64,000 nucleotides of DNA from Butyrivibrio sp. (lineage in GTDB: Bacteria > Bacillota > Clostridia > Lachnospirales > Lachnospiraceae). Below the pieces are notes generated by a model. It saw only the letters and a program-made list of their open reading frames with translations. It had not been told where the DNA came from and did no database searches. The stretch's first letter is position 1. Every line of letters starts with the position of its first letter. The translations under genes were made by a program, and so were the position numbers. Positions 25,659 to 40,318 of the stretch are shown here, one piece after another. The stretch covers positions 62,001-126,000 of the forward strand of contig NZ_JAFRGN010000043.1 of the NCBI RefSeq assembly GCF_017433805.1. The letters are read 5' to 3'.

Positions 25659-27281
25659 TTATACAGCTTCAAATTTAAGATTATCTGCCATGAGGTCGCT
25701 CAGGAACTGCTTGCACTTCTGAGCTGCAGGTGTTGTGCAGGTTCCGCAGTCAGAACCACACAGGCGCTCTGGAGGTGTCAATCTGTAGTGTCTCTCCATT
25801 GCCTGAAGGCATTCATGGTATGGAATCAGTGGATCAATACCGATAATTGCCATCTCAGCATACATTGGAGCTGTCACTGCTGCCCTAAGAGTCCTTGTGA
25901 TACATGGGAATTCAAGGCCGCCTGGAATTGGATCGCAGACAAGTCCCATGTTCGCCTGAAGAGCCATGGATGCTGCACGCTCTACTGCTATGCCAACGTC
26001 TACTAGTGGATCATCCGGCGTGATCAGATAGGCAATTGCTCCAGCTGCCATGGCATTACATACTCCTGATTCTCCAATACAGCCTCTGTCACCGGAAGCA
26101 TTAGTATGAGTGTAGGCCAATGCTCCCAGGGCCGCAGCGATCACAAGTGCTTCCAGCTCTCTTTCCCTGCTAAAGCCCCTGTCCTCTCTTACTGCATCAA
26201 GCGCTGAATACAAATATCCGCCGCCAGTTCCCATTGGGCCCGGAACAATCTTAAAGCCGGGGACCTTGGCATTGGTGGCATAAGCATGAGTTAAAATGTG
26301 TCTTGTAAGAGAGTCAGATATTACCTTACCTCCATCAAGATATTTCTTCCACAGCTTGCCATAAATAGGAAGTGTAGGTGTATCCTCCGCATCGTAGTCA
26401 AGCTCCTCAAGGCTGTGAATCTGCTTATCAAATATATCCCTTATCTTAATAAAGAACGCCCAGATCTCTTCTTCACTCCATCCAGAGGCATCCTTTTCAT
26501 ACTCAATTGCAGCCTGAAGAAAAGATATTCCCCTGTCACTGGCAACCTGCCTCCACTCCTCAACAGTTGTAAAGAGCTGTTTCTTCTTGGCCTTAGTAGT
26601 AACTACTGGAAGGACAGCTGGAAGATGCACTGTCTGTCCAGCGCCTCCTGCCAGAATATCGTCGACATCAGAAATATCAATATCAGTCTCTATGAAAAGA
26701 GCTTCTCTATCATCAGCATTTGTGACTATGCGATGTTCTACAACATGATCACCAAATTTCTCAATATACTTGGAGACCAGGTTATCCAAATCTGTATCAG
26801 TACCTATAACCAATGTTCCGAATGTATCAGCCTGCCAGTTAAGCTTATAACCATAGGCTTCATATATCCTGATCATTCCTCCGCCTACAGATGCCCCAAT
26901 CAGCTCGCCCTGACTGCTTTCTCCATAGACATTTATCTTAACTGCCCTAAAGTAACCAAAATTCCCATCATCAAGTCTGAATTCATAGGATAGTTTTTTC
27001 TCCTGGGCAAGTCTGTGAGCATCAAAAAGTCTCTTATCATCTGTGGCAAAGCCCTGTACACCACCAAGATACCCTCTGTCTGTCATAAAATTCCCCAGTG
27101 ACTTAAATCGGCCTATATCCTCCTGTTGAAGCGAGAATACAACCTTTTTAGGCTCTTCCTTGATAAGATGTCTTGCCACATTACCTATTCTTGCCGGGCC
27201 TGCAAAGCCTCCTGATGATCCCGGCTGCATTATAGGTCCAAATACGTCATTAAAAAAATCCGGATAAAAAATTTTAGCCAT
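25659..27281 (-). CDS. Fe-S L-serine dehydratase-like protein (fused beta-alpha, atypical)
   Basis: A 540-residue fusion of a serine-dehydratase beta-like domain (about 1-200) and alpha-like domain (about 240-530). The alpha part keeps the [4Fe-4S] cysteines: GCIGESG, LVCDPIPGG and FPCITRT. The beta part has QPGSSGGFAGPARIG where true serine dehydratases have the SSSHTAG motif, so the histidine of that motif is missing. The C-terminal tail is cysteine-rich (CGSDCGTC, AQKC). It may act on serine, cysteine or a derivative, releasing ammonia and a keto acid; the substrate is uncertain. It is the last gene of the nitrogenase-like/sulfur cluster, 20 bp after the trans-sulfuration enzyme gene. Confidence 0.75.
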   Translation of the reverse strand: MAKIFYPDFFNDVFGPIMQPGSSGGFAGPARIGNVARHLIKEEPKKVVFSLQQEDIGRFKSLGNFMTDRGYLGGVQGFATDDKRLFDAHRLAQEKKLSYEFRLDDGNFGYFRAVKINVYGESSQGELIGASVGGGMIRIYEAYGYKLNWQADTFGTLVIGTDTDLDNLVSKYIEKFGDHVVEHRIVTNADDREALFIETDIDISDVDDILAGGAGQTVHLPAVLPVVTTKAKKKQLFTTVEEWRQVASDRGISFLQAAIEYEKDASGWSEEEIWAFFIKIRDIFDKQIHSLEELDYDAEDTPTLPIYGKLWKKYLDGGKVISDSLTRHILTHAYATNAKVPGFKIVPGPMGTGGGYLYSALDAVREDRGFSRERELEALVIAAALGALAYTHTNASGDRGCIGESGVCNAMAAGAIAYLITPDDPLVDVGIAVERAASMALQANMGLVCDPIPGGLEFPCITRTLRAAVTAPMYAEMAIIGIDPLIPYHECLQAMERHYRLTPPERLCGSDCGTCTTPAAQKCKQFLSDLMADNLKFEAV

Positions 27282-27301
27282 ATGCCTCTCCCCTAGTTGT
27301 A

Positions 27302-28462
27302 TTATGCCAGTGCCTGTCTCAAATCCTCTTTCAGATCCTCCACGTCCTCAATTCCTACAGATAATCTGAATACTCCATCGGTTACCCCGGTTCTCTTTCT
27401 CTGTTCTTCAGGAATCGGGCGCTGAAGAGAAGCATTTGGAAGATTAATCAGCGACTGAACTCCTCCAAGACTTCCAGCCTGATATATGAGTTTGAATTTT
27501 CCAAAATATGAAGGCGCCTTAGAAGCATCTTTTATCTCAAAAGAGATCATACTGCCAAAGCCAGCCTGCTGCCTCTTTGCAAGTTCATGGTCAGGGTGCT
27601 CCTCATCCCCTGGATAGATAACTCTTTTCACATTTGGAAGGCTCTTAAGATATTCTGCTAAAACCTTAGCGTTTTGCTGCTGCCTTTCAAGCCTTACAGA
27701 AAGAGTCTCCATGCCTCTGAGAGTCAGCCAACAATCATCTGGAGATAATGGATTACCTGTAGCAAATACATAAAAATATAATTTCTCTCTAAGTTCTTTG
27801 GTTGCTGTTACGATTACTCCCGCCAGCACATCGTGGTGCCCTGCCAGGAACTTGGTAGCACTGTGGATCACAATATCTGCACCAAGCTCTATAGGCTTTT
27901 GTAAAAGAGGTGACAGGAATGTATTATCTACTATCAAAAGAGCATTCTTGTCATGAGCTATTTGAGAAATAGCCTTGATATCACTTATCCTTAGCATCGG
28001 ATTGGAAGGTGTTTCTATGATAAAGCCCTTTACATCATCTGTAGCTGCAGCTCGTACTGCCTCTATATCCCAGGTATCTACAAATGAAAACAGATAGCCG
28101 TACTTACTGTACACCTGATCAAATAGTCTGTAGCTTCCGCCATAGAGATCGCTGGACACAATTATCCTATCTCCTGGTTCAAAGAGTCTGAGTACCGCAT
28201 CAAGTGCTGCAAGACCGCTTGTTACTGCAAGGGCATCTGCTCCGTGTTCGAGTAATGCCACCTGCTTTTCAAGAGCTCTCCTTGTAGGTGTATTGCATCT
28301 GGCATAGGAAAAATCCTCTGGATCATGTTCCAAAGAACTATGTACGTAAGTTGCACTTCTATAAACAGGAACGCTTATGCTACCAGTCTCATCAAAAATT
28401 CCACTTCCTCTTGCTATCAAAGTATTCTCTCTACAGTTACAGTCAACATTTAGCTCCGACAT
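27302..28462 (-). CDS. Trans-sulfuration PLP enzyme (cystathionine gamma-synthase/lyase family)
   Basis: A 386-residue Cys/Met-metabolism PLP enzyme. It shows SVPVYRSATYVH, the substrate loop YARCNTPTRRALE, SDLYGGSYRLF, IVDNTFLSPLLQKPIELGAD, the PLP lysine in HSATKFLAGHHD, and LGGVQSLINLP near the C-terminus. The family makes or cleaves C-S bonds: cystathionine gamma-synthase, beta- or gamma-lyase, or O-acylhomoserine sulfhydrylase. Which one cannot be told from motifs alone. It lies between a MORN-like gene and the serine-dehydratase-like gene in the nitrogenase-like cluster, which supports a role in organosulfur turnover. Confidence 0.88.
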   Translation of the reverse strand: MSELNVDCNCRENTLIARGSGIFDETGSISVPVYRSATYVHSSLEHDPEDFSYARCNTPTRRALEKQVALLEHGADALAVTSGLAALDAVLRLFEPGDRIIVSSDLYGGSYRLFDQVYSKYGYLFSFVDTWDIEAVRAAATDDVKGFIIETPSNPMLRISDIKAISQIAHDKNALLIVDNTFLSPLLQKPIELGADIVIHSATKFLAGHHDVLAGVIVTATKELREKLYFYVFATGNPLSPDDCWLTLRGMETLSVRLERQQQNAKVLAEYLKSLPNVKRVIYPGDEEHPDHELAKRQQAGFGSMISFEIKDASKAPSYFGKFKLIYQAGSLGGVQSLINLPNASLQRPIPEEQRKRTGVTDGVFRLSVGIEDVEDLKEDLRQALA

Positions 28463-28469
28463 ATTATTG

Positions 28470-29084
28470 TTACCTCTTTTCTATTCCAATATAAGAAATG
28501 ATTTTCCCCTCTTTATCGAAAACAAGCGAATTATTATCAGCATGCATATGATTGGCAAAGAAGTTAAATGGCGCTATCTTTTTCCCCTCCACCATGATGG
28601 TCGTACCAAACACAGGCTCAAGAGATCTGATCTTACCATCTTCGTAAAAAGAGACTCCTACATTTGTTGTTATCTGTCCGTATCTGGTATCCACCAAAAG
28701 CTTCTCGTGATCATATATTGTAAAGCTCAATAATTCACCACTCTCATAGAAATGAATGCATTGTGGTTTAACCAGAAAGGATGCGTCTCCAATCTGTAGT
28801 CGCATCCTCTCGGTAATAGAAGCTTCGTCCTTGGAACTCCAATATGCACTTATTGCCCCATATCTTGGGAATACTCTCCGGATAGCTCCGCTCTCATAAA
28901 AGGTTATCAGCTCGCAAGGGATGACTCCGCATGGTGTCTCAATGTCAGTCTGCTCATTCAGGTAAATACTCTTTAGTCTTCCGCTCTTGTAGTAGCTGAC
29001 TCTCTCCCTTTCCTTACGTCTGAAATCCATGGGCGGAACAGCCGTAGTTTCGTAATTTTCAAAAAGTTTGGTGTAGTCCTTCAT
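28470..29084 (-). CDS. MORN-like repeat protein of unknown function
   Basis: A 204-residue protein with no signal peptide. It repeats a short beta-hairpin-like unit: YYKSGRLKSIYL, FYESGAIRRVFP, FYESGELLSFTI and FYEDGKIRSLEP, spaced 30-50 residues apart. This resembles MORN-variant/YwqK-type repeats. Four cysteines or so are scattered without a clear motif. I recognise no function. It sits between the ABC transporter and the trans-sulfuration enzyme genes, with gaps of under 40 bp on each side, so it is very likely co-expressed with the cluster. Confidence 0.65.
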   Translation of the reverse strand: MKDYTKLFENYETTAVPPMDFRRKERERVSYYKSGRLKSIYLNEQTDIETPCGVIPCELITFYESGAIRRVFPRYGAISAYWSSKDEASITERMRLQIGDASFLVKPQCIHFYESGELLSFTIYDHEKLLVDTRYGQITTNVGVSFYEDGKIRSLEPVFGTTIMVEGKKIAPFNFFANHMHADNNSLVFDKEGKIISYIGIEKR

Positions 29085-29114
29085 ACGAACACTTCCTTAA
29101 TTATCTAAATCTGC

Positions 29115-30041
29115 TCATCCTTCTGTAAGAGTAGAATTCAGATCAAATGGGTTGAATCCATAGAACTCTGTTGCGATTTTCTCAAGAGTTCCATCTTCCT
29201 TAAGCTGGCCAAGTACCTCTGAAATATCCTGCGTAAGCTGTGTCTCACCTTTAGCAATGATTGGGAAAGTACTGATAGAGATAACTGGTGTGTATGAGAG
29301 CTTGTCATAATACTCATGAAGTGCTCCATCTTCAGGCTCGATAACTGTAGTCCATCTAGATACAGGTGTAAGATGGCATCCATATCTTCCTTCAGCAACA
29401 GCTACAATCGCATTTGAAAATGCATTCTCATCACTTGTATATGAGAGTTCAAGCTGATTGTCAGGGTGCTCTTCGTTATACTTCTGATACTGATATGTGT
29501 TACCATCACCTGCCAGGTATGGAGCCGGCTTAAGGCCTGCTGTAGCTGCTGCCTCAAGTGATGTGATATCAGCATTTTCCTTGCTTACGATAAGTCCGGC
29601 CGGTGATGCTCCGATAGGATTTTCTGGAATCTCGTAGTTCTCAGCTCTCTTAGTTGTATAGTAAGCGTTTGTAAGAGCTATATCATACTTACCTGTAGAA
29701 AGACCTGTGTAAATAGCCTCCTGCTCTCCGTCATAGTACTCAAACTCATACTGTGGAAGTGCTTCATCGACAAGCTTAATCACTTCAATCTCATATCCTG
29801 TCTTGTTACCATTTTCATCGTAGTAAGAAAATGGAACAGCGCTTGATGATGATGCAATTCTTATCTTGCGAACCTCGCCGCTTCCAGCTGCATCTTCTGT
29901 CTTATTCTCTGCCTGCGCAGTTTCTTCCTTTACTGGTTCTGCTGCCTTTTCTGTAGCAGAAGCGCTTGATGCCTGTCCGCATCCTGCAAGTACCACTGTC
30001 ATAGCTGCTGTTAAAACAAATCCTAAAACTCTTTTTTTCAT
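29115..30041 (-). CDS. ABC transporter substrate-binding lipoprotein, polar amino-acid type
   Basis: A 308-residue family 3 solute-binding protein. The lipoprotein signal peptide ends in the lipobox LAGC. The mature part starts IRIASSSSAVPFSYYDENG and includes TGYEIEVIKLVDEALP, and LTNAYYTTKRAENY with the conserved arginine that holds an amino-acid carboxylate. The ligand is probably an amino acid or derivative; cystine or an S-alkyl cysteine would fit the surrounding sulfur genes, but that is inference. The ATG at 30041 has GAGGAGGAAGAAAAG directly upstream; a longer reading to 30176 would overlap the ATPase gene. It works with the ATPase and two permeases upstream. Confidence 0.9.
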   Translation of the reverse strand: MKKRVLGFVLTAAMTVVLAGCGQASSASATEKAAEPVKEETAQAENKTEDAAGSGEVRKIRIASSSSAVPFSYYDENGNKTGYEIEVIKLVDEALPQYEFEYYDGEQEAIYTGLSTGKYDIALTNAYYTTKRAENYEIPENPIGASPAGLIVSKENADITSLEAAATAGLKPAPYLAGDGNTYQYQKYNEEHPDNQLELSYTSDENAFSNAIVAVAEGRYGCHLTPVSRWTTVIEPEDGALHEYYDKLSYTPVISISTFPIIAKGETQLTQDISEVLGQLKEDGTLEKIATEFYGFNPFDLNSTLTEG

Positions 30042-30072
30042 CTTTTCTTCCTCCTCTTGATGTGATGATTTT

Positions 30073-30825
30073 TTATATAACATAGTCATATCCTTCAAGA
30101 AATCTTGATAGGAACTGCCTAGTTCTCTCTTCTTTTGGGTGTGTGAACAGCTCTTTGGCTTCTCCCTGTTCAACAATCACTCCCTTGTCCATATAAATAG
30201 CTTTGGTAGCTACGTCTCTTGCAAAGGCCATCTCATGGGTTACGATTACCATCGTTACACCCTTTTTAGCCAGCTTACTGATGGTCTCAAGAACTTCTCC
30301 TACAAGCTCCGGGTCGAGAGCTGATGTAGGTTCGTCAAAAAATATCACCTCAGGTTCTACGGCCAGCGCCCTTGCTATGGCGACTCTTTGCTGCTGTCCT
30401 CCTGATAATTCACTTGGATAATAATCAAATCTGTCTGCCAGACCAACTTCTTCAAGTGAACGCCTTGCTATTTCTTTGGCTCTAACCTTACTTACTCCGT
30501 GGCCTTTAGTAAGACCAAGCTCTACATTTTCAATTGCATTCTTGTTATTAAAAAGGTTGTAGTTCTGAAATACAAAGGATGTCTTTTGCCTTAACTCATG
30601 TATCTTCTGCCTTGATGCCGTGTGCAGATCCGCCTGTGTTTCACCTATTTTGATTGTTCCCTGGTCTGCTTTTTCAAAGAATTCAAGACACCTTAGAAGT
30701 GTTGTCTTACCTGATCCCGACGATCCCAGAATCGCAACCACATCTCCTTTTTCAACGCTAAAGCTAACGCCCTTTAATACTTCATTATCCCCAAACGCCT
30801 TATGTACATTCGATACACTTAACAT
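30073..30825 (-). CDS. ABC transporter ATP-binding protein, polar amino-acid type
   Basis: A 250-residue ATPase with Walker A GSSGSGKTTLLRCLEFFE, the Q-loop FVFQNYNLF, signature LSGGQQQRVAIARAL, Walker B VIFFDEPTSALDP and the H-loop VTHEMAFARDVA. The sequence is of the GlnQ/TcyC/TcyN group, which energises uptake of glutamine, arginine or cystine. It overlaps the upstream permease gene by 7 bp and precedes the binding-protein gene by 31 bp. GGAGAAGACA precedes the ATG. Confidence 0.93.
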   Translation of the reverse strand: MLSVSNVHKAFGDNEVLKGVSFSVEKGDVVAILGSSGSGKTTLLRCLEFFEKADQGTIKIGETQADLHTASRQKIHELRQKTSFVFQNYNLFNNKNAIENVELGLTKGHGVSKVRAKEIARRSLEEVGLADRFDYYPSELSGGQQQRVAIARALAVEPEVIFFDEPTSALDPELVGEVLETISKLAKKGVTMVIVTHEMAFARDVATKAIYMDKGVIVEQGEAKELFTHPKEERTRQFLSRFLEGYDYVI

Positions 30826-31526
30826 TGTCTTCTCCTATATACCAATTTGGTCTCTTCCAGTTTTTTCATTATCAGCTCAGTAATTTTAATGACCACTATA
30901 TAGATGAAAAATACGCATATATATGATTCAAAGTACCTGAGCACTCCTCCTCCGAGAATTCTGGCATAACCCGTTATCTCCACTACAGAGAGCATAAATG
31001 CCAGGGAAGATGACTTAATAAGTCCTACCAGAATATTTCCCAGAACCGGCCAGGCTGTTGTAAATGCCTGAGGGAAAACGACGTTAAACAGCACCTGTCC
31101 CTCTGTCATGCCAACCGATAATCCCGATTCAAACTGTCCCTTATCTATGCTCTCAAGTCCTGCTCTTACCGCTTCAGCTATTGATACGGTTGTTGAAAGA
31201 GATAGTGCAAGAAACGCATAATATATTGGCTTTATTGAATAGACATCCGCCTGGATATTTAGTTTTTGAAACATTTCAGTCAGAAGATATGGTCCAAAGT
31301 GAAAGATAACAAATATCTGAAGTACAATCGGTGTTCCTCTTATAAGTGACATGTACGTCCTGATGATCTGTGATGCCACCTTAACCTTCTTGAAATTGAT
31401 GTAAGCAAATATGGTCCCTATTATCAGTGAAATGGTCATAGCCACAACTGTTAATTCTATGGTCACCGGCAAATATGCCAGAACCTGTGGGAAAGCTTCA
31501 ATAACAAATTTCCAATCTACATTCAT
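30819..31526 (-). CDS. Amino-acid ABC transporter permease
   Basis: A 235-residue inner-membrane permease of the HisM/GlnP type: helices at about 15-37, 55-75, 90-110 and 185-210, with the coupling motif EAVRAGLESIDKGQFESGLSVGMT. Its ATG overlaps the stop of the other permease gene (ATGA, 4 bp), so the two are translated together. They probably form a heterodimer. Confidence 0.9.
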   Translation of the reverse strand: MNVDWKFVIEAFPQVLAYLPVTIELTVVAMTISLIIGTIFAYINFKKVKVASQIIRTYMSLIRGTPIVLQIFVIFHFGPYLLTEMFQKLNIQADVYSIKPIYYAFLALSLSTTVSIAEAVRAGLESIDKGQFESGLSVGMTEGQVLFNVVFPQAFTTAWPVLGNILVGLIKSSSLAFMLSVVEITGYARILGGGVLRYFESYICVFFIYIVVIKITELIMKKLEETKLVYRRRQC

Positions 31527-32236
31527 GTTTTCTGCTCCAAGACTACGACGTGCTTATATTCAAGTTTTTTCTCCAGAACGGAAAAGAGCTTCTCAAGGCC
31601 AGCTGTAATCGGCCAGTAAATGAGTGTTAGTGCAACACACATATCAAGAGCATATGCATTCATATCAAGAGCTGACAGGAAATATGCCTGCCCCAGCACA
31701 TCACGAAGACCTATTACATAAGCCAGAGCTCCTTCCTTTATCAGGAAGATGATTGTGTTACCGATGTTAGGAATAGAGTTCCTGAACATCTGCGGAAGTA
31801 AAACGTGGTTAAAAGCCTGAAGCTGAGTCATTCCAACTGATAAAGCTGCTTCCAGCTGTCCCTTACTGACTGAGTTGTAAGCACTTCTGATAATCTCAGA
31901 TGAAGATGCCCCAATGTTGATAGTAAAGGTAATAATGACGAATACCACCGTAGGAAGGCTGTTTAAAAATATGTTAAACGCGCCTGTAGTAACTGCTGAC
32001 AGTCCATAAAACACCAGAAACAGCAAAATGATCGAAGGTGTGGATCTGACCAATGTTACATAACCCTGCGCCAGTGCCGATATCGCCTTGTTCCTGCTCA
32101 TTCTTCCTTTTGCTATCAGTCCTCCAAGAGCAAAGCCCAGAATCAATGAGAAGAAAACATAAGTTAATGTAACCCGTAGATTAGGCAGTGATTTTAAAAA
32201 ATATTCCAGTATTCTTGATAGGTTTATTGTTCTCAT
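31523..32236 (-). CDS. Amino-acid ABC transporter permease (second subunit)
   Basis: A 237-residue permease of the same family, with helices at about 20-40, 55-80, 90-112 and 190-215 and the coupling motif EIIRSAYNSVSKGQLEAALSVGMT. It starts immediately after the stop of the small NifX-like gene, which ties the importer physically to the nitrogenase-like genes. TcyL/TcyM-like pairs in Bacillus import cystine and sulfur-containing analogues with two different permeases, a similar arrangement; the substrate here is not known. Confidence 0.9.
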   Translation of the reverse strand: MRTINLSRILEYFLKSLPNLRVTLTYVFFSLILGFALGGLIAKGRMSRNKAISALAQGYVTLVRSTPSIILLFLVFYGLSAVTTGAFNIFLNSLPTVVFVIITFTINIGASSSEIIRSAYNSVSKGQLEAALSVGMTQLQAFNHVLLPQMFRNSIPNIGNTIIFLIKEGALAYVIGLRDVLGQAYFLSALDMNAYALDMCVALTLIYWPITAGLEKLFSVLEKKLEYKHVVVLEQKT

Positions 32237-32602
32237 TTAACGTCTCGCCTTTAAGTATTGTTGGATTTTGATCAGGAGGCTTTCTATATCACCTTCCTGT
32301 TCAAGAGTCTGTATTCCTCTCCTTAAGAGGACTCTTGATGGATATGCACCGACCTCTTTTAGCAAAAGATACTCACAATCATGAAGGACGTCGGCTATAG
32401 CGTTTACGTATTCATCATTCCTTCCTGCACATCCGCCTCCATCCGGTACCGGATAAGCTGCGACATCAGGAAGTGTTCTGTTATCTATCTGCTGTATGTT
32501 GTCATCGCTTAATTCATAGATGGCAGCATTCTTTATTTCTCTAAAAGAAACTTTTGTATTTGGGTCATTGTCATATCCTACTGCAACTAATGTATTCTCC
32601 AC
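32237..32602 (-). CDS. NifX/NafY-like small protein in the nitrogenase-like cluster
   Basis: A 121-residue protein with a GTG start. The second half, IADVLHDCEYLLLKEVGAYPSRVLLRRGI, follows the pattern of the NifX/NafY/NifB C-terminal fold (a DC-x-vL-x-iG-x-x-x-L-x-x-GI block). The N-terminal half begins VAVGYDNDP like the same fold, and GGGCAGRNDEY adds a cysteine. Such proteins carry iron-sulfur cofactors between NifB and component 1. It lies directly after the NifK-like gene (20-bp gap), so a cofactor carrier or chaperone for this enzyme is likely. The assignment is by fold pattern, not strong identity. Confidence 0.62.
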   Translation of the reverse strand: MENTLVAVGYDNDPNTKVSFREIKNAAIYELSDDNIQQIDNRTLPDVAAYPVPDGGGCAGRNDEYVNAIADVLHDCEYLLLKEVGAYPSRVLLRRGIQTLEQEGDIESLLIKIQQYLKARR

Positions 32603-32622
32603 ATTTACACACTTCCTAAGCT

Positions 32623-33984
32623 TTATTTCTCAACTGTTGTATGTGCTATGAAGCCTTTATTCAATACTCCGGAATATAGGTCCTCTATGAGCTGTAAGCC
32701 TCCGTTATATCCAACATAAGATTTGCTGACGATTACTTTTTCAAGAATCGGTACACTCAGATAGATCAGAACGCTCTTGGTGTTATAAGCAAGTTCTCTG
32801 TCCCAGCTGGATCCAAAGATTACAGATTTTGTTTTTCTCTCATCAATGTTCCTTTTGATATCCTCTTTGATAAGAGCATTATCTCCTTCGAATACAACTC
32901 TCTCTCCAAGACCTTCCTTGATGCTCTCAAGCTTTTCCTTGATCCGATCCTTGGATGCATTGTTAGGTTCTGAGCTGTCATAGAACTTAACTACCTCTAT
33001 TCCAAGTTCATTTTCAAGGAAATCTGATATTCCAACACCGTAAATATCATCAGCGGATACATACGCATCAAATGGAATATAAGAAGAATAGTCAGCCAGG
33101 AAATCGCCGATTGAAACGAAGTACTTCTTGTATCTCTTTTCCTCATACTTAATGAAACTTTCTACCTTATCAGTATCAAGCTCAAGAGCCTCTCCTACTC
33201 TTCTAAGGAATGCGCTTGTAGCCTTAAGTCCAACAGGAAGCACCGGCTCATGAAGAAATGGTGTTCCATATTTTCTCTGACAGAGCTTGGCTGCTGATAA
33301 ACCAACCCATGGAGAAAGAACTATATTAAGCTGCGCATTTGGAATATTCTTCCACTCTGAAACGCCTTCTGAACCATATCCAAAGAGAATATTAACCTTA
33401 AGTCCTATTCCAGTGAGGATTCTCTTTATTTCTTCCAGGTCGCCTCTCCAATAAACATCCTGATAAGGTACTACTGAAAAGACATTTACAAGTCCTTTTT
33501 CCGGCTCTATTTCTTCGTCTACGTCGCCTACAAACTGCTCTATGAGTGCCTCAAGAACAAGATTATGGCCCTTGTAGTTATTGCCTCTAAAGCCGGCTGT
33601 ATCTACTCCAATTACCTTTTTTTCTTTGGTAGAATGATCCTCAGCTACCTGCTTTACATCGTCTCCGACAATTCCTGCAGTGCATCCTGACATTACGACA
33701 TACAGATCGCCATCCATGACATCCAAAGTTGCATCAATCAGCTTGCCAAGCTTTTTTTCTCCTCCAAATACAACTTCATTCTGAGTTGAATTAGTACATG
33801 GAATCTGTGCTCCACCTGCGTAGCCTTCTCCCTGATATCCAGCTCCTGCACTCAGATATGAGAACTGTCTGGCACTACAGCCAGGACCTGCATGTATGAT
33901 TGGTATGGCACGTGGTATTGCAAGCACGGACTGCTGCGAACCAAGCGCGCATGAATATTTAGCTTCTTGTATAATTCCGCCCAT
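32623..33984 (-). CDS. Nitrogenase-like component 1, NifK/beta-type subunit
   Basis: A 453-residue subunit of the oxidoreductase/nitrogenase component 1 family. The three P-cluster cysteine positions are recognisable: KYSCALGSQQ (Cys12, cf. NifK AKACQPLGA), HAGPGCSAR (Cys36) and SGCTAGIVGDD (Cys101). An extra cysteine, Cys63 (IPCTNS), lies between them. It lacks the roughly 60-residue N-terminal extension of classical NifK. It pairs with the NifD-like protein encoded 19 bp upstream. GGAGATAACGCG precedes the ATG. Full P-cluster ligation sets it apart from chlorophyll and F430 enzymes, which have reduced sets. Confidence 0.85.
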   Translation of the reverse strand: MGGIIQEAKYSCALGSQQSVLAIPRAIPIIHAGPGCSARQFSYLSAGAGYQGEGYAGGAQIPCTNSTQNEVVFGGEKKLGKLIDATLDVMDGDLYVVMSGCTAGIVGDDVKQVAEDHSTKEKKVIGVDTAGFRGNNYKGHNLVLEALIEQFVGDVDEEIEPEKGLVNVFSVVPYQDVYWRGDLEEIKRILTGIGLKVNILFGYGSEGVSEWKNIPNAQLNIVLSPWVGLSAAKLCQRKYGTPFLHEPVLPVGLKATSAFLRRVGEALELDTDKVESFIKYEEKRYKKYFVSIGDFLADYSSYIPFDAYVSADDIYGVGISDFLENELGIEVVKFYDSSEPNNASKDRIKEKLESIKEGLGERVVFEGDNALIKEDIKRNIDERKTKSVIFGSSWDRELAYNTKSVLIYLSVPILEKVIVSKSYVGYNGGLQLIEDLYSGVLNKGFIAHTTVEK

Positions 33985-34003
33985 CGCGTTATCTCCTCAC
34001 CAG

Positions 34004-35452
34004 TTAAATAAATAGTCTTTCATCCTCAAGCCACTGCTTGGTATATGGGAATTCATTGTATTCTTCAAGTGTAGTCAGAACTCTCTTAAACTTTCTGATG
34101 TTCTTAAGTCTCTCACCAAGAGTTATGATTCCGTCATATCCAGCAGATACATTTACTTCTCCTTCCAGAATTGATGGAATTCCAAGCTTAGCTGACAGCG
34201 CCGGCAAATGCATATGTCTGATGATTACAACATCCGGCTTAACTTGTTTAAGTATCTTGATAACTTCATAAGGCTGTTTCTCACATACTGAAAAATGCTC
34301 TATGTCTCCGGCTACATTTATCATCTCCTGAAGAGAACTGTGCTCTACAGGCTCTCCATCTGTCTTCATATCATGGTGAAGAGTTGTGATACCTGCTATC
34401 TCTATTCCAAGATCAGAAGCTATGCTGGCCATGTTGTGAGCGTAGGAATCACCAGCGTAGATATATATCCTAAGTCCCTTAAGCTCTTTTCTAAGTTCTT
34501 CAAGCTTAGGAGCTATTCTCTCGTGTTCCTTGGCAATAACTTCTTCAACTATGTCTGACTTACCTGTAAGCCTTGCCACTTCTCTATACCAGGCATCAGT
34601 CCACTTTATTCCATAAGGAGCTGTAGCATGTACATGAGGCACACCGTACTGTTTCTCAAGGACATCTGTAATATATGTTCCAAGTGTTTCGCAGATACTT
34701 GTAGAACATGCTGCTTCTGTCATTCTGGCTATGGTATCAATATCTGCCAAAGGAACCAGGTAATTAGGCCTGAGTCCTATTTTCCCAAGAATTTCTGAAA
34801 AGGTATCTGATCCCATGAAGTTAAAGATATTAACAAGATCTGGCTGTTTCTTTTCAGGTTCTTTGACTATTCTCTTTAAAAGAGCGTGGTAGCCAGCATC
34901 AAAACCTGATGACCATACCTTTGATTTAAAGCCTTCGCAGTAGACAGGAACTACTGGAATTCCATATTCAGCCTGTTTCTCATCTGCAACACTCTCGATG
35001 TCGTCACCGACGATACCAGCTGCACAGGAAGACTGAACAAATATAGCTGACGGATGGAATCTCTTATAGGCTTCATCAATTGCTTCTCTTAATTTCTTGA
35101 GGCCTCCGTAGATTGTCTCTTTTTCTGAAATGTTGCTACATACAACATTTGTCTTAAAGGGCTTTTGACCTCTTCCAAGAGATCCGCTTTTATTTATCTC
35201 ATCGTTTGCCGGATTATTGGCAAAGCATCCCATTGGTGAATGAACAACTACTGCTGCATCTCTAATGTGGCTACAGATAGTTCCAGCTCTCATCTGCGCA
35301 CAGTCACTACACTGTGAAAAGCATCTTGGCTGCTCGACCTTTTTCTGAGAAACTGCGCCAGCCTGAAGTTCACTGGCTTTTCCAGCAAAAGATATTATTG
35401 ATTTAAGTCTTCTTTCTCTTACTTCTACTTCTGTTGTAAGGCTATTACTCAT
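34004..35452 (-). CDS. Nitrogenase-like component 1, NifD/alpha-type subunit
   Basis: A 482-residue alpha-type subunit. P-cluster cysteines: AGTICSH or nearby (Cys60; Cys51 is also close), HSPMGC (Cys76) and SSCAAGIVGDD (Cys143). The cofactor cysteine of NifD (Cys275) aligns with Cys254 because CETLGTYITDVLEKQYG matches the NifD spacing to EKYG exactly. The region of the cofactor histidine (NifD His442), here 424-440 before GYDGI, holds no histidine. Cysteines at 44 and 48 make an N-terminal CxxxCxxC. The enzyme likely reduces a substrate on a NifB-derived cofactor, but its substrate is unknown. It sits between the nifH and NifK-like genes. Confidence 0.85.
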   Translation of the reverse strand: MSNSLTTEVEVRERRLKSIISFAGKASELQAGAVSQKKVEQPRCFSQCSDCAQMRAGTICSHIRDAAVVVHSPMGCFANNPANDEINKSGSLGRGQKPFKTNVVCSNISEKETIYGGLKKLREAIDEAYKRFHPSAIFVQSSCAAGIVGDDIESVADEKQAEYGIPVVPVYCEGFKSKVWSSGFDAGYHALLKRIVKEPEKKQPDLVNIFNFMGSDTFSEILGKIGLRPNYLVPLADIDTIARMTEAACSTSICETLGTYITDVLEKQYGVPHVHATAPYGIKWTDAWYREVARLTGKSDIVEEVIAKEHERIAPKLEELRKELKGLRIYIYAGDSYAHNMASIASDLGIEIAGITTLHHDMKTDGEPVEHSSLQEMINVAGDIEHFSVCEKQPYEVIKILKQVKPDVVIIRHMHLPALSAKLGIPSILEGEVNVSAGYDGIITLGERLKNIRKFKRVLTTLEEYNEFPYTKQWLEDERLFI

Positions 35453-35473
35453 CTTTGCTCCTCCATACCCCCA

Positions 35474-36343
<870 letters not shown>

Positions 36344-36354
36344 TTAACAAAAAA

Positions 36355-36390
36355 GAGACTAGTCCTTAAGTAGTACTAAGAACTAATCTC
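36355..36390 (-). promoter_or_regulatory. Terminator/attenuator-like hairpin in the nifH leader
   Basis: Minus strand GAGATTAGTTCTTA, 8-base loop, TAAGGACTAGTCTC: a fully paired 14-bp stem counting two G-U pairs, then CTTTTTTG. It is 38 bases before the nifH start, with no promoter-like sequence between. Confidence 0.7.
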
Positions 36391-36478
36391 CAGTTGTCCG
36401 GTCGATTATGTTTAACGAATTAAAGTATTAAATTAAAAAGATATTAGCATAAGTGCTTAGTTTGTAGAATCAGCCTTT

Positions 36479-36498
36479 ACTTATAGCCAGGTATAAGT
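36479..36498. promoter_or_regulatory. Operator-like inverted repeat between nifX and nifH
   Basis: ACTTATA-GCCAGG-TATAAGT: perfect 7-bp arms around 6 bp, just downstream of the nifX-like stop and about 160 bp before nifH. It could be a regulator site or a weak hairpin. Confidence 0.4.
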
Positions 36499-36518
36499 AT
36501 TTCTTGTAGCTCTTTTCC

Positions 36519-36884
36519 TCAAAAGCTCTGCATCTCTGCAAGAAGATTAAGATATCCATCAAGCTTTTTTAGTGCATCTCCTACTGTTCCCGGCATCTCA
36601 AAGGCTGCTATGCCGTGCTGTGACAGCTCATCTACAGCCCCTGGGCCTATCCTCGCTGCCAGAACAAAGTTACAATCAAGAAGCGCTTCAACGCCTCTTT
36701 TCATCTTATCTGAGTTGTGAGATCCGCCATTGCATATAGGAACAACAAATCTCTGCTCAATTTCTTCATATGAACCACTATCGTCAACATCAACTATCAA
36801 AAAGCTCTCAGCTCGTCCGAAGTGCTGATCTACGTTTCTGTTATCAGTTGATGCAAGTGCTACTCTGTATGCTCCATTTCCCAT
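36519..36884 (-). CDS. NifX-family cofactor carrier protein
   Basis: A 121-residue NifX/NafY-fold protein with the family motif NVDQHFGRAESFLIVDVDD, CNGGSHNSDKM, and the block LLDCNFVLAARIGPGAVDELSQHGI. NifX binds and stores NifB-derived cofactor on its way to component 1. The ATG at 36884 has CGGAGGAAAGAAC upstream and starts 13 bp after nifB ends; a longer reading to 36905 would overlap nifB without a ribosome site. With no NifE/NifN scaffold in the cluster, this protein and its relative at 32237-32602 may deliver NifB-co directly. Confidence 0.85.
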   Translation of the reverse strand: MGNGAYRVALASTDNRNVDQHFGRAESFLIVDVDDSGSYEEIEQRFVVPICNGGSHNSDKMKRGVEALLDCNFVLAARIGPGAVDELSQHGIAAFEMPGTVGDALKKLDGYLNLLAEMQSF

Positions 36885-36897
36885 GTTCTTTCCTCCG

Positions 36898-37770
36898 TCA
36901 GCCATGTGAAAAAGTATTCTTCACATTTAACCTATTCTGATATACAAGCTGGCTGTATTCAGAAAGACCTGGAACACCAACAGCATCTGCACGGCAGTGC
37001 GCACAATGTCTAAAGACCTTGATGTACTTTTCAGCATCCTCTCTTGCTTTCTCAATCTGTTCACAGGTAGGCTTAGGAACATCTGACAGTTTGTGCTGTG
37101 GAATCAACGGTATTATGTTGTAGATAAGTGCACCTGCTTCCTTGACTGTCCTTGCGATCTCACTTATGTGATGGTCATTTATTCCTGGAACAAGCACTGT
37201 ATTTATCTTAATAGTAACTCCTGCTTCAGCTACTTTTCTGATACCTTTAAGCTGATTTTCAATGAGTATTGCAGCACCCTCAGTACCTTCTATCTTCTTG
37301 CCATGATATATAATGAAGTCGTTAAGCTGTGCTTCTATCTGCGGATCAACAGCATTAACTGTCACCGTAAGAGTATCTACACCAGTCTCTATCAGTTCAT
37401 CTGCTCTTTCATATAGTAGGAGTCCGTTAGTACTCATACACTTAAGGAGTTCTGGATGCTCTCCACCTATTTTCCTGAAAGTCTCAAAGGCGTAATCTGT
37501 TGCCAGTGTATCTCCAGGTCCTGCAATTCCTGCAACCTTTATGCTAGGCACCAGTTCAAGTGCTCTTCCTATAAATGTATTAGCCTCATCTGGTGAAATT
37601 ACCTTGGAGGTTACACCTGGTCTTTGTTCCACATCATTTATTGATCTGTCACAGAATCTGCAGGCTATATTACAGCCCGGGCTCACGGGTAAATGAATTC
37701 GCCCTGCATTAAATTTGCATCCACCAAAGCATGGATGGTTTCTCTCAAGTTCCTGAATACTTCTAGCCAT
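36898..37770 (-). CDS. nifB: NifB, radical SAM cofactor-maturation enzyme (short form)
   Basis: A 290-residue radical SAM enzyme that builds NifB-co, the carbide-centred 8Fe precursor of nitrogenase cofactors. It has HPCF (Cys14), GRIHLPVSPGCNIACRFC with the SAM cluster CxxxCxxC (Cys33, 37, 40), NDVEQRPGVTS, GIAGPGD and the C-terminal HCAHCRADAVG (Cys256, 259), which holds the accessory K-clusters. The C-terminal NifX domain of long NifBs is absent and is encoded separately next door. The presence of NifB is the strongest evidence that the nitrogenase-like enzyme uses a complex Fe-S cofactor rather than tetrapyrroles. Confidence 0.92.
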   Translation of the reverse strand: MARSIQELERNHPCFGGCKFNAGRIHLPVSPGCNIACRFCDRSINDVEQRPGVTSKVISPDEANTFIGRALELVPSIKVAGIAGPGDTLATDYAFETFRKIGGEHPELLKCMSTNGLLLYERADELIETGVDTLTVTVNAVDPQIEAQLNDFIIYHGKKIEGTEGAAILIENQLKGIRKVAEAGVTIKINTVLVPGINDHHISEIARTVKEAGALIYNIIPLIPQHKLSDVPKPTCEQIEKAREDAEKYIKVFRHCAHCRADAVGVPGLSEYSQLVYQNRLNVKNTFSHG

Positions 37771-37814
37771 CTTCCTGTCCCCTTACCTGAATGTTTCATA
37801 CCATAGAAGGCAAT

Positions 37815-37967
37815 TTAGAATCTGATCTTGGTACTGGTCTCAACCTGTGTGATCTTGCCATCATGTACTGTGATGATCACATTTCCATATTTAAGATTAC
37901 TTACCTGGCTCTTTATAACTTCCCAGATCTTGTCGCTATCCTTCTGTTTATTAACTTCCCCTGCCAT
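37815..37967 (-). CDS. yezD: YezD-family small protein
   Basis: A 50-residue protein, MAGEVNKQKDSDKIWEVIKS at the start and then a core VSNLKYGNVIITVHDGKITQ followed by VETSTKIRF and a stop. The pattern lkYGnviItVhDGkitQvE..tKiRF matches the YezD family (DUF2292), small proteins repeatedly found with sulfate and cysteine assimilation genes in Firmicutes and other bacteria; their biochemical role is unknown. AAGGGCAGGAG lies upstream of the ATG at 37967. The gene sits between the C-S lyase and nifB genes, all on the same strand, which links the nitrogenase-like enzyme to sulfur metabolism. Confidence 0.8.
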   Translation of the reverse strand: MAGEVNKQKDSDKIWEVIKSQVSNLKYGNVIITVHDGKITQVETSTKIRF

Positions 37968-38040
37968 CTTGCTATCTCCTGCCCTTCTTTGTTTTCTAGA
38001 ATGTTACAGCATGGCTAAAGCCAGCACAATTAAGCAAATC

Positions 38041-39231
38041 TTATAGCCGTCTACCACTTTTTTCTAATGCTTCATAGAGCTGAACAAGCGCCTGTTCAAG
38101 CGTTTTTCTGGGGCATGCAATGTTGATTCTCTCAAAAAGAGCTGTTTCCCGGCCAAATATAATGCCAGGATCAAGCCATAACCTGGCTTCATCGACTATA
38201 AGTTTTTCAAGTTCCTTATGATTATCACTGATCTCTGAAAAATCCAGCCATATAAGATAAGTGCCTTCTGGCTCAATAAGATGCACTTTAGGAAGCTTTT
38301 CTTTCAAGTAATCTCTTACAAAAGAAAGGTTCTCTTCAAGGTATTCTTTTAGCTCCTCAAGCCACTCTTCACCATAGGTGTATGCGGCCTTTGTTGCTGT
38401 TAGTCCAAGAGTATTGGGCTGGCTATATCCAGAAGCATCGTTTTCTCTTCTGAACTTCTTCCTAAGCTCGTCATTAGGAATAATGATATTGGCAATCTGA
38501 AGGCCTGCAAGATTAAAGGTCTTACTGGGGGATGTGCCAAGTATGAGGCTCTGAGCATATCTTTCGCCAAGAGTTATAAGGGATGTATGTTTGTATTTAC
38601 TGTAGACAAAATCAGCATGTATCTCGTCTGCAAATATAAGCACATTATGTTTTAGACATATATCTGCCACTTTCTGTAGTTCTACACTTGTCCATACTCT
38701 TCCTACAGGATTGTGAGGACTGCATAAGAGAAATAGCTTAACCTTCTCTTCAATAATCTTTTTCTCAAAATCATCGTAATCTATCTCGTAGTGGCCGTCC
38801 TTATAGACAAGCTGGTTATTTACAACCTTCCTGTTATTAAGCTTAATTGTCTCCATAAAAGGGTAATAAACAGGCTGCTGAATGATGACTCCATCCCCCG
38901 GTTCTGTAAAAGCCTTAATGGCAAGTGCAATGGAATAAACCATTCCAGGCTCCACAGTGTTCCATTCGTCATATATCTCAAAGCCGTGGCGCCTATACAG
39001 CCATGACTTAAGAGCTTCTTTATAAGAGGAATCCGGATCAGTATATCCAAATATGCCGTGTTCAGCTCTTTTAACTATTCTTTCGATTATCTCATCAGGT
39101 AACCTGAAGTCCATATCTGCTACCCAAAGAGGAAGAAGATCATCTCGTCCTTTTCGCTGAATTCCAAAGTCATATTTAAGGCTTGCTGTATTTTTTCTGT
39201 CTATCAATTCATCAAAGTTATATCTGCCCAT
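38041..39231 (-). CDS. MalY/PatB-family C-S beta-lyase (PLP aminotransferase fold)
   Basis: A 396-residue fold-type I PLP enzyme. It shows LLPLWVADMDFRLP (family start), FGYTDPDSSY, CSPHNPVGRVWT, IFADEIHADFVY, and GTSPSKTFNLAGLQIAN with the PLP lysine. MalY/PatB members are cystathionine beta-lyases and release thiol, pyruvate and ammonia from S-substituted cysteines. In this cluster it could open an S-alkyl cysteine or cystathionine. The ATG at 39231 has AAAGGG upstream; a GTG at 39240 lies inside that ribosome site. A hairpin at 39254-39285 lies in its leader. Confidence 0.88.
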   Translation of the reverse strand: MGRYNFDELIDRKNTASLKYDFGIQRKGRDDLLPLWVADMDFRLPDEIIERIVKRAEHGIFGYTDPDSSYKEALKSWLYRRHGFEIYDEWNTVEPGMVYSIALAIKAFTEPGDGVIIQQPVYYPFMETIKLNNRKVVNNQLVYKDGHYEIDYDDFEKKIIEEKVKLFLLCSPHNPVGRVWTSVELQKVADICLKHNVLIFADEIHADFVYSKYKHTSLITLGERYAQSLILGTSPSKTFNLAGLQIANIIIPNDELRKKFRRENDASGYSQPNTLGLTATKAAYTYGEEWLEELKEYLEENLSFVRDYLKEKLPKVHLIEPEGTYLIWLDFSEISDNHKELEKLIVDEARLWLDPGIIFGRETALFERINIACPRKTLEQALVQLYEALEKSGRRL

Positions 39232-39253
39232 ATTAGTCACCCTTTTATAAATT

Positions 39254-39285
39254 GATGCCCCGAAGCAAATGAGCTACGGAGCATC
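39254..39285 (-). promoter_or_regulatory. Stable hairpin in the C-S lyase leader
   Basis: Minus strand GATGCTCCGTAGC, loop TCATTT, GCTTCGGGGCATC: 13-bp stem with wobble and mismatch positions, ending about 22 bases before the start codon. It is not followed by a strong T-run, so a leader structure is more likely than a terminator. Confidence 0.45.
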
Positions 39286-39340
39286 CTACTATCCCCAGTC
39301 CAAGCTGTTTTGGCACTGGTTTCTTATTCAATATGTTCAA

Positions 39341-39362
39341 AGAATTTCAAATGAGAAATTCT
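39341..39362. promoter_or_regulatory. Inverted repeat downstream of cysK
   Basis: AGAATTTC-AAATGA-GAAATTCT, perfect 8-bp arms, about 20 bp after the cysK stop. It may be a weak terminator or an operator for the following genes. Confidence 0.4.
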
Positions 39363-39382
39363 CTTTTGCCGAGTACTGTATA

Positions 39383-40318
39383 TTAGTTAGCGAAAAGAGG
39401 TGTAGAAAGATATCTGTCACCTGAATCAGGAAGCAGAACTACAATATTCTTGCCCTTATTCTCTGGCCTTTCTGCAACGATAGCAGCTGCTTTAAGTGCT
39501 GCACCTGATGAAATACCAACGAGAATTCCTTCAGAAACTGCAAACTTCTTGCCCTCTGCGAAAGCATCGTCATTCTCAATAGCGATTACTTCATCATAAA
39601 CCTTGGTGTTAAGAGTATCTGGCACAAAGCCTGCACCGATTCCCTGAATCTTATGAGCGCCTGCTGTTCCCTGTGAAAGAACTGGGCTGCTTGCTGGCTC
39701 AACTGCAATAACCTTAACGTCAGGATTTACTTCCTTGAGGAACTCACCTACACCAGTTATTGTTCCGCCTGTACCAACACCAGCGATGAAGATATCAACC
39801 TGTCCATCTGTCTGCTTCCAGATCTCTGGACCTGTGGTCTTTCTGTGGATCTCTGGGTTAGCTGGGTTAACGAACTGTCCAAGAATTACAGCTCCCTCTA
39901 TTTCTTTTTCAAGCTCTTCAGCCTTGGCGATTGCTCCCTTCATGCCCTTGGCACCTTCTGTGAGAACAATCTCAGCGCCGTAAGCCTTAAGAAGATTTCT
40001 TCTCTCAACACTCATTGTATCTGGAAGTGTGAGGATTGCTTTGTAGCCCTTAGCTGCTGCAACTGCTGCAAGACCAATTCCTGTATTGCCACTTGTTGGC
40101 TCTATGATTGTTGCTCCTGGTTTGATTCTACCGCTCTTTTCTGCATCCTCTATCATACTAAGTGCAACTCTGTCTTTTACTGAACCAGCTGGATTAAGAT
40201 ACTTGAGCTTGGCAAGGATGTTAGCATTTGTAACTCCTGCTGCCTTGCTGTATCCGTTAAGTTTAAGAAGTGGTGTTCCCCCGATAAGTTCAAGTGCGCT
40301 CTGCTTGATGTCTGCCAT
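39383..40318 (-). CDS. cysK: Cysteine synthase (O-acetylserine sulfhydrylase)
   Basis: A 311-residue PLP enzyme making cysteine from O-acetylserine and sulfide. Signatures are GGTPLLKLN, NPAGSVKDRVALSMIEDAE with the PLP lysine (about residue 49), EPTSGNTGIGLA, GTGGTITGVGEFLK, GAGFVPDTLNTKVYDEV and VGISSGAAL. The C-terminus is of CysK/CysM ordinary length with no CBS domains. It is the first gene of the nitrogenase-like/sulfur cluster, and GGAGGAAAATATC precedes the ATG. It would capture sulfide released by the downstream enzymes. Its upstream region (40319-40470) has AT-rich promoter-like sequence but no clear riboswitch or T-box. Confidence 0.95.
   Translation of the reverse strand: MADIKQSALELIGGTPLLKLNGYSKAAGVTNANILAKLKYLNPAGSVKDRVALSMIEDAEKSGRIKPGATIIEPTSGNTGIGLAAVAAAKGYKAILTLPDTMSVERRNLLKAYGAEIVLTEGAKGMKGAIAKAEELEKEIEGAVILGQFVNPANPEIHRKTTGPEIWKQTDGQVDIFIAGVGTGGTITGVGEFLKEVNPDVKVIAVEPASSPVLSQGTAGAHKIQGIGAGFVPDTLNTKVYDEVIAIENDDAFAEGKKFAVSEGILVGISSGAALKAAAIVAERPENKGKNIVVLLPDSGDRYLSTPLFAN

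Follow-up and report, generated by a model that had tools for sequence, protein, structure and literature searches.

A 64-kb stretch of Butyrivibrio sp. DNA (referred to as the window) carries a nitrogenase-like operon, nflHDK with nifB, embedded among sulfur amino acid genes and an amino-acid-type importer. With modest confidence, we propose that the encoded enzyme is related to methylthio-alkane reductase (Mar) and would cleave a C-S bond reductively at the expense of ATP, acting on a substrate other than that of Mar and handing the reduced sulfur to the cysteine synthase CysK.

A Conserved 16-Gene Operon

The operon is a block of 16 genes on the minus strand running from 40318 to 25659, and all genes named in a previous sequence-only reading of the window were recovered at their coordinates. 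In order of transcription it comprises cysK, patB, yezD, nifB, a nifX-like gene, nflH, nflD, nflK and a second nifX-like gene, followed by two permeases, an ATPase, a binding lipoprotein, a MORN_2-like protein, a pyridoxal phosphate (PLP) enzyme and an Fe-S dehydratase-like enzyme:

39383..40318, minus strand: cysK, cysteine synthase A (TIGR01139, 446 bits, cut-off 351)
38041..39240, minus strand: PatB/MalY-family C-S lyase (TIGR04350, 470.7 bits, cut-off 340)
37815..37967, minus strand: yezD, small DUF2292 protein, 50 aa
36898..37770, minus strand: nifB, radical SAM protein, 290 aa, short form without C-terminal NifX domain (TIGR01290, 264.5 bits, cut-off 343.7)
36519..36905, minus strand: nifX-like gene (PF02579)
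35474..36325, minus strand: nflH, NifH-type Fe protein with P-loop (TIGR01287, 466 bits, over cut-off)
34004..35452, minus strand: nflD, predicted catalytic subunit with Mar-type ligands Cys51, Cys76, Cys143, Cys254 and Arg412-His413
32623..33984, minus strand: nflK, predicted partner subunit with P-cluster Cys12, Cys36 and Cys101
32237..32602, minus strand: second nifX-like gene (PF02579, 31 bits, cut-off 26.3)
31523..32236, minus strand: amino-acid-type ABC permease 1
30819..31526, minus strand: amino-acid-type ABC permease 2 (PF00528)
30073..30825, minus strand: ABC ATPase (best NCBIfam model TcyN, L-cystine, 327.5 bits, below cut-off 406)
29115..30041, minus strand: binding lipoprotein (SBP_bac_3)
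28470..29084, minus strand: MORN_2-like protein (24.9 bits, below Pfam cut-off 29.6)
27302..28462, minus strand: Cys/Met-metabolism PLP enzyme (nearest to cystathionine gamma-lyase/homocysteine desulfhydrase, 416.9 bits, below cut-off 594)
25659..27281, minus strand: Fe-S serine-dehydratase-like enzyme, beta and alpha parts fused

Some gene details of the sequence-only reading were corrected: NifB carries no NifX tail at its 290 aa, yezD lies at 37815-37967, and the lipoprotein most likely starts at 30041 rather than at the first TTG of its open reading frame. Many junctions are shorter than 25 bp or overlapping, as that reading had described (nifB/nifX-like, 8-bp overlap; nflH-nflD, 21 bp; nflD-nflK, 19 bp; nflK-second nifX-like, 20 bp; second nifX-like-permease, 0 bp; permease/permease, 4-bp overlap; permease/ATPase, 7-bp overlap; MORN_2-like-PLP enzyme, 7 bp; PLP enzyme-dehydratase-like, 20 bp). 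Longer gaps separate cysK from patB (142 bp) and the first nifX-like gene from nflH (193 bp). With the binding protein start set at 30041, gaps from nflH to the last gene are at most 31 bp throughout. NifB keeps the radical SAM motif CxxxCxxC, together with further motifs that we take to be typical of NifB, and Cys100 and Cys135 of NflH would be the [4Fe-4S] ligands.

The gene order recurs in two further genomes, and therefore the operon is not a chance arrangement: genes and order are identical in G407 (91-100% protein identity; yezD not called there) and in G402, which has one extra PLP gene (33-97% identity). In Butyrivibrio sp. AC2005 (L087/L111), NflD is 51% identical and patB, yezD, the importer and the MORN, PLP and dehydratase-like genes are kept in a different order. 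The source genome of the window is a draft of 3.45 Mb (74 contigs, 98% complete). A PF00148 search of this draft returned two matches, the NflD/NflK pair, in agreement with the claimed absence of nifE and nifN. Likewise, no protein of the genome reaches the NifV cut-off; molybdenum transport and nif regulators were not searched for. No riboswitch or T-box was found by Rfam at E <= 1 within positions 20000-45000.

NflDK Is a Neighbor of Mar

The best solved relatives of NflD and NflK were 9fmg/9d9u (430 and 405 bits), with the next best matches at 152 and 80.5 bits. These entries are listed only as "Nitrogenase". We take them to be Mar of Rhodospirillum rubrum because their residue numbers agree with PMC12552129: the D chain of 9fmg has all 12 residues named for MarD in that paper at the stated numbers, and the same is true of the three K cysteines named there.

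In a midpoint-rooted tree of 74 D proteins, the window sequence fell into a 14-row clade that is sister to MarD plus two other proteins (support 99/97). A tree of 130 rows, drawn from 150 D-type proteins with 23 near-duplicates and one odd row dropped, recovered the window clade (W) with 19 rows and a support of 99, and did not settle how W, the Mar clade (M) and a further clade (G) branch relative to one another. Members of W come from Butyrivibrio, Eubacterium xylanophilum, other Lachnospiraceae, Treponema-type Spirochaetota and Clostridium sp. LS. A careful 39-row D tree separated W (20 rows, 100/98) from M (13 rows, 100/100). The K tree likewise recovered both W (19 rows, support 99) and M (27 rows, support 100) as clades, and an M+W grouping was not rejected by the approximately unbiased (AU) test (p-AU = 0.82). 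Monophyly of the 14 Lachnospiraceae-type W rows, with five Treponema-type rows and L113 left out, was neither established nor rejected (p-AU = 0.078). Judged from these trees, the NflDK group is a neighbor of Mar, its sister in one tree, and not Mar itself. This upholds the proposal of the sequence-only reading that the system is related to but distinct from Mar, and the phylogeny that it had suggested as a check, together with residues described below, places NflD and NflK outside the true nitrogenases.

Other nitrogenase-like clusters were seen alongside this group. The family-level relatives L066 and L067 carry clusters with proteins grouping with or near Rhizobium NifD and NifE. The D proteins of three more family-level relatives (L068, L069 and L070) lack two P-cluster cysteines and the cofactor cysteine (Asp, Pro, Asn), a pattern resembling the reported isethionate reductase, but with Asp where Arg is reported for that enzyme. 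Plasmid pTS2 of Treponema saccharophilum (L102, 382 kb) encodes a pair of nitrogenase component 1 subunits on either side of an NMT1-type importer, the two pairs being different from each other, and no nifB or nifH was seen within the stretch examined.

The Cluster Ligands Are Kept and the Pocket Is Changed

The window proteins retain all six P-cluster cysteines of MarD/MarK as well as the equivalents of MarD Cys270 and His429 (cluster ligands), Arg428, Trp195, Phe199 and His375. MarD residues C66, C91, C158, C270, R428, H429, W195, F199 and H375 are invariant in 99 of 99 rows from W, G, a further clade C and the Mar-side groups M1 and M2. Arg428-His429 has been proposed as a possible hallmark of Mar (PMC12552129); in the alignment this pair is the mark of a set wider than Mar.

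Three other MarD residues, His194, Cys73 and Gln74, are replaced by Val179, Thr58 and Ile59 in the window NflD. His194, placed near the S2B site in PMC12552129, is present in 31/31 rows of M1 and M2 and in 0/19 rows of W, which have Ile, Val, Met, Thr or Ala instead. Cys73 is found in 30/31 and 0/19 rows, and Gln74 in 31/31 and 2/19 rows, respectively. The loss of His194 is not peculiar to W, as this residue is also absent from clades G and C; Cys73 is kept in all 37 rows of G and lost in C. The long-branched L141, which falls into M in the 130-row tree and was counted in neither M1 nor M2, has His194, Thr and Asn at the other two pocket sites, and Trp in place of Phe199. We infer that the window enzyme would use the same cofactor as Mar and, since the pocket residues differ, another substrate.

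A Sulfur-Amino-Acid-Type Importer Accompanies Clade W

Gene neighborhoods were counted within 9 kb of NflD, among sequences that are related and on contigs of which some are short. Permeases of the window type were found in 13/19 W loci, compared with 0/14 in M1, 0/16 in M2, 0/37 in G and 2/12 in C. The binding protein was present in 14/19 W loci by clustering (13/19 by score), in none of the M1, M2 and G loci, and in two C loci. A Fisher test of 13/19 W against 0/67 M and G loci gave 3e-11, a value that serves as a guide only because the rows are related. The permease is missing from six W loci, namely L090 (a short contig on which the binding protein is present), L113 and four Treponema-type loci. 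At L106, L107, L110 and L118, all within W, the importer adjoins D/K and there is no cysK in the same gene run.

A profile of seven binding protein rows had 4c0r, 4eq9, 4gvo, 2o1m and 2yln as its top five solved matches. We take these to be glutathione or cystine binders (4gvo being Lmo2349 and 2o1m being YtmK), although some are listed only as amino-acid binding, and Lmo2349 is presumably the Listeria protein TcyK. Listeria TcyK binds cystine and cysteine (PMC9239247). By homology, these matches support the assignment of the importer to the cystine/glutathione (sulfur amino acid) type.

CysK Is the Likely Sulfur Sink

The cysK of the operon is the only cysteine synthase (cysKM-type) match over the cut-off in the genome. 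No match to NIR_SIR (PF01077) or to PAPS reductase (PF01507) was found in the genome, and CysK has no visible sulfide supply from sulfate or sulfite there. Of 79 Butyrivibrio genomes, 41 carry NflD-type genes (a 42nd, weak match was left out), while PF01077 occurs in 10 of the 79 and, among the NflD bearers, only in G406, G419, G467 and G473. In 26 of the 41 nfl-bearing genomes, no more than 15 kb separates the top CysK from an NflD; in the other 15, the two are on different contigs (13 genomes) or more than 230 kb apart (2 genomes). The link to cysteine synthesis suggested by the sequence-only reading is thus a strong one.

A CysK at least 80% like that of the window was found nearby in 6/19 W, 7/12 C, 1/37 G, 0/14 M1 and 1/16 M2 loci, with a threshold that favors Lachnospiraceae and with neighbors missed on short contigs. 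Enzymes of the MetY group were near none of the 19 W loci versus 19 of 37 clade G loci; this group was defined by a tree, and of three members scanned, one was over the MetY cut-off and two had MetY as best family below it.

The L071 proteins are 90% (CysK), 74% (PatB) and 88% (NifH) identical to those of the window, yet its K and D proteins share only 33% and 27%. A cysK-patB-nifB-nifH core is found with quite different D/K pairs at both L071 and L096. We read this as a putative shared sulfur core with exchangeable reductase-importer cassettes. Additionally, clade C loci (L050, L051, L052, L055, L056, L049 and L096) encode a second, diverged CysK-like protein between nifH and nflD (46-50% to the window CysK), as if a sulfhydrylase partnered the reductase.

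Tail Enzymes and Neighboring Genes

In a tree, the PLP enzyme groups on a separate branch with four other rows, which come from G407, G402 and AC2005 (G411, present twice). Orthologues of the Fe-S dehydratase-like enzyme (at least 75% identity) occur in only four of the 79 genomes (G000, G407, G402 and G411), each time inside this operon; matches of any kind were found in 52 of 79 genomes, the non-orthologues at about 40% or less. The enzyme keeps the cysteines of the serine dehydratase alpha part, but SSGGFAG takes the place of the SSSHTAG found in the canonical L092 protein, and its C terminus is a CGSDCGTC motif (CGGNCGTC in G402). Because of the changed motif and this C-terminal end, it is probably not a serine dehydratase and may instead be a lyase that frees ammonia or sulfur from the imported amino acid or from what remains of it.

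Two genes upstream of cysK and on its strand, positions 42837-46589 encode a 1250-aa protein that, by eye only, resembles a secreted alpha-amylase with C-terminal repeat modules; it is apparently unrelated to the operon.

Proposed Mechanism and Alternative Explanations

We propose that the operon encodes a two-component nitrogenase-like enzyme that would not fix nitrogen. NifB would build the [Fe8S9C] cluster, which the NifX-like proteins probably carry. At the expense of ATP, NflH would feed electrons into the P-cluster of NflDK, from where they would reach the [Fe8S9C] cluster, whose ligands in NflD would be Cys254 and His413. At this cluster an organosulfur C-S bond would be cut reductively, as suggested by Mar and by the conservation of all cluster ligands. 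The substrate or its precursor would enter through the cystine/glutathione-type importer, the PLP, PatB and Fe-S dehydratase-like enzymes would process the sulfur amino acid or pieces derived from it, and the reduced sulfur, most likely sulfide, would be captured by the operon CysK to yield cysteine. The order in which lyase and reductase act is conjectural in this scheme. The pairing of PLP lyases with a reductase that consumes ATP would be understandable if the C-S bond attacked is beyond the reach of PLP enzymes, for example that of a released thiol; this consideration underlies the thiol-reductase alternative below.

Several observations weigh against this mechanism. We examined 12 nfl-free loci from 18 nfl-free Butyrivibrio genomes with a CysK at least 85% like that of the window. 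Window-type permeases lie near cysK in three of them (L213 in G403, L215 in G417 and L216 in G408), and a fourth of the 12 (G427) has an ATPase 57% like that of the window. The three loci indicate that the link between importer and cysK can exist without the reductase; this weakened the tie between importer and reductase and slightly lowered our confidence in the mechanism. Six of the 12 loci have cysK-patB-PLP without nfl, the other six have cysK without patB, and cysK is present in 77 of 79 genomes (E <= 1e-100). We therefore tempered the view of cysK as nfl-specific, since genomes lacking nfl have it by itself or next to patB-PLP, and some of these genes may function in general cysteine metabolism. 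Among nfl-bearing genomes, cysK lies away from the nfl genes in G411 and G461; in AC2005 the tail enzymes accompany the nfl operon, while a different contig carries cysK. Five Treponema-type W sequences have another importer, which is of the NMT1 type in the one classified, that of T. saccharophilum L102, a further row outside the 19. Thus, importer and enzyme are not strictly paired, and clade W as a whole is unlikely to share a single fixed substrate. The importer assigned by the sequence-only reading stands as a sulfur-amino-acid-type system that goes with W and not with M or G, and does not extend to these five sequences. The score of the MORN assignment is under its cut-off. Further, two MetY-length enzymes are encoded elsewhere in the genome, with L190 over the MetY cut-off, so that methanethiol could also be used.

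The last point bears on the alternative that we weigh most seriously while considering it unlikely, an ordinary Mar that releases methanethiol from volatile methyl sulfides for conversion to methionine by a MetY encoded elsewhere, with the importer as a bystander of the cysK block. The MetY-type enzyme at L190 and the importer genes near cysK in three nfl-free loci are in line with it, and Mar (R. rubrum MarBHDK), which frees methanethiol from methylthio-alkanes (PMC12552129), is the nearest characterized relative. The window shares with it the BHDK gene set, every metal ligand (six P-cluster cysteines and the Cys and Arg-His ligands of the [Fe8S9C] cluster, Loop I) and the Trp195/Phe199/His375 equivalents. 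However, both subunit trees place the window in a separate neighboring clade outside that of Mar, and His194, Cys73 and Gln74 are replaced. The context differs as well: a cystine/glutathione-type importer, CysK and C-S lyases instead of a nearby MetY (none near the 19 W loci), two NifX-like genes, and the terminal PLP and Fe-S dehydratase-like enzymes. At L106, L107, L110 and L118 the importer adjoins D/K with no cysK in that gene run, which does not fit a bystander. Based on the separate clade and the changed pocket, we do not accept a simple Mar.

A thiol reductase appears more doubtful still. Here the importer would bring in S-methyl amino acids, a lyase would release a thiol, chiefly methanethiol, and the reductase would convert it to methane and sulfide, from which CysK forms cysteine. 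This would explain why the ATP-costly reductase stands together with C-S lyases, an amino acid importer and the sole CysK. Thiol reduction by this family is undescribed in the literature considered.

A sulfonate reductase resembling isethionate reductase (IsrBHDK of Rhodobacter capsulatus), with sulfite as product, is highly improbable. Isr, the second known sulfur-releasing nitrogenase-like enzyme besides Mar, which was the only one of the two named by the sequence-only reading, is reported in intestinal bacteria and has in common with the window the BHDK gene set, a nearby sulfur-compound importer and oxygen-free sulfur assimilation (PMC11423573). According to the same paper, IsrD has only one of three P-cluster cysteines and lacks the cofactor ligands Cys275/His442, whereas the window has all three plus Cys254 and His413; its importer is SsuCAB, and IsrB is nearest to BciD. 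The binding protein of the window is SBP_bac_3, not of the Ssu or NMT1 type, and released sulfite would lead nowhere visible here, as there is no PF01077 match. The cysteine pattern and the missing sulfite reductase match led us to reject Isr. Equally hard to credit is a reduced nitrogenase fixing N2 without NifEN, as claimed for group IV-A NfaDK of Endomicrobium (and Heliophilum NflDK1; PMC9147875, compared by description only), which likewise belongs to group IV and has NifB but not NifEN: NifB and NifH are present in the window, yet the NifD positions Gln191/His195 are Trp180/Phe184 in NflD, the operon neighbors are sulfur and transport genes and no protein reaches the NifV cut-off, and a true nitrogenase (groups I-III) was rejected on gene content (no NifEN) and residues.

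Relation to Known Systems and Significance

Clade G operons (e.g., L036, L145 and L159) resemble that of the window in NifBHDK and in the same cluster ligands. They differ in their companion genes: across L036, L145, L147, L154, L159, L180, L043 and L092, either a MetY-like enzyme is combined with an NMT1-type importer, or a CysK-like and a cystathionine-lyase-like enzyme are combined with an importer of the MetNIQ/NlpA type. This suggests that several more organosulfur reductases await description. Genes of group IV located next to sulfur genes have been noted in PMC9147875, PMC10418091 and PMC13067680, the last with a cysteine synthase, and the general idea of nitrogenase-like enzymes in sulfur metabolism is not new. 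The open-access literature searched, with subscription papers mostly outside it, gave no description of clade W, its importer, its tail enzymes or the nfl operons of Butyrivibrio. Taken together, the reductase, the importer and the sole cysteine synthase in one operon suggest that this gut bacterium draws on organic sulfur by a route not yet described.

To our knowledge, a reaction has been assigned to few nitrogenase-like enzymes other than those of tetrapyrrole synthesis. The two relevant characterized relatives, Mar and Isr, both free sulfur compounds. Clade W offers a natural test of how substrate choice is set on [Fe8S9C], in that the predicted cofactor is kept and the pocket, the importer and the sulfur sink are changed. 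As NflD-type genes occur in more than half of the Butyrivibrio genomes and PF01077 in only four of these bearers, such enzymes may decide sulfur acquisition in gut Butyrivibrio, and possibly hydrocarbon release as well. Should the enzyme prove to be a thiol reductase, gut methane would have a source among bacteria rather than archaea, and cysteine could be made from methylated sulfur amino acids with no need for oxygen or for the reduction of sulfate.

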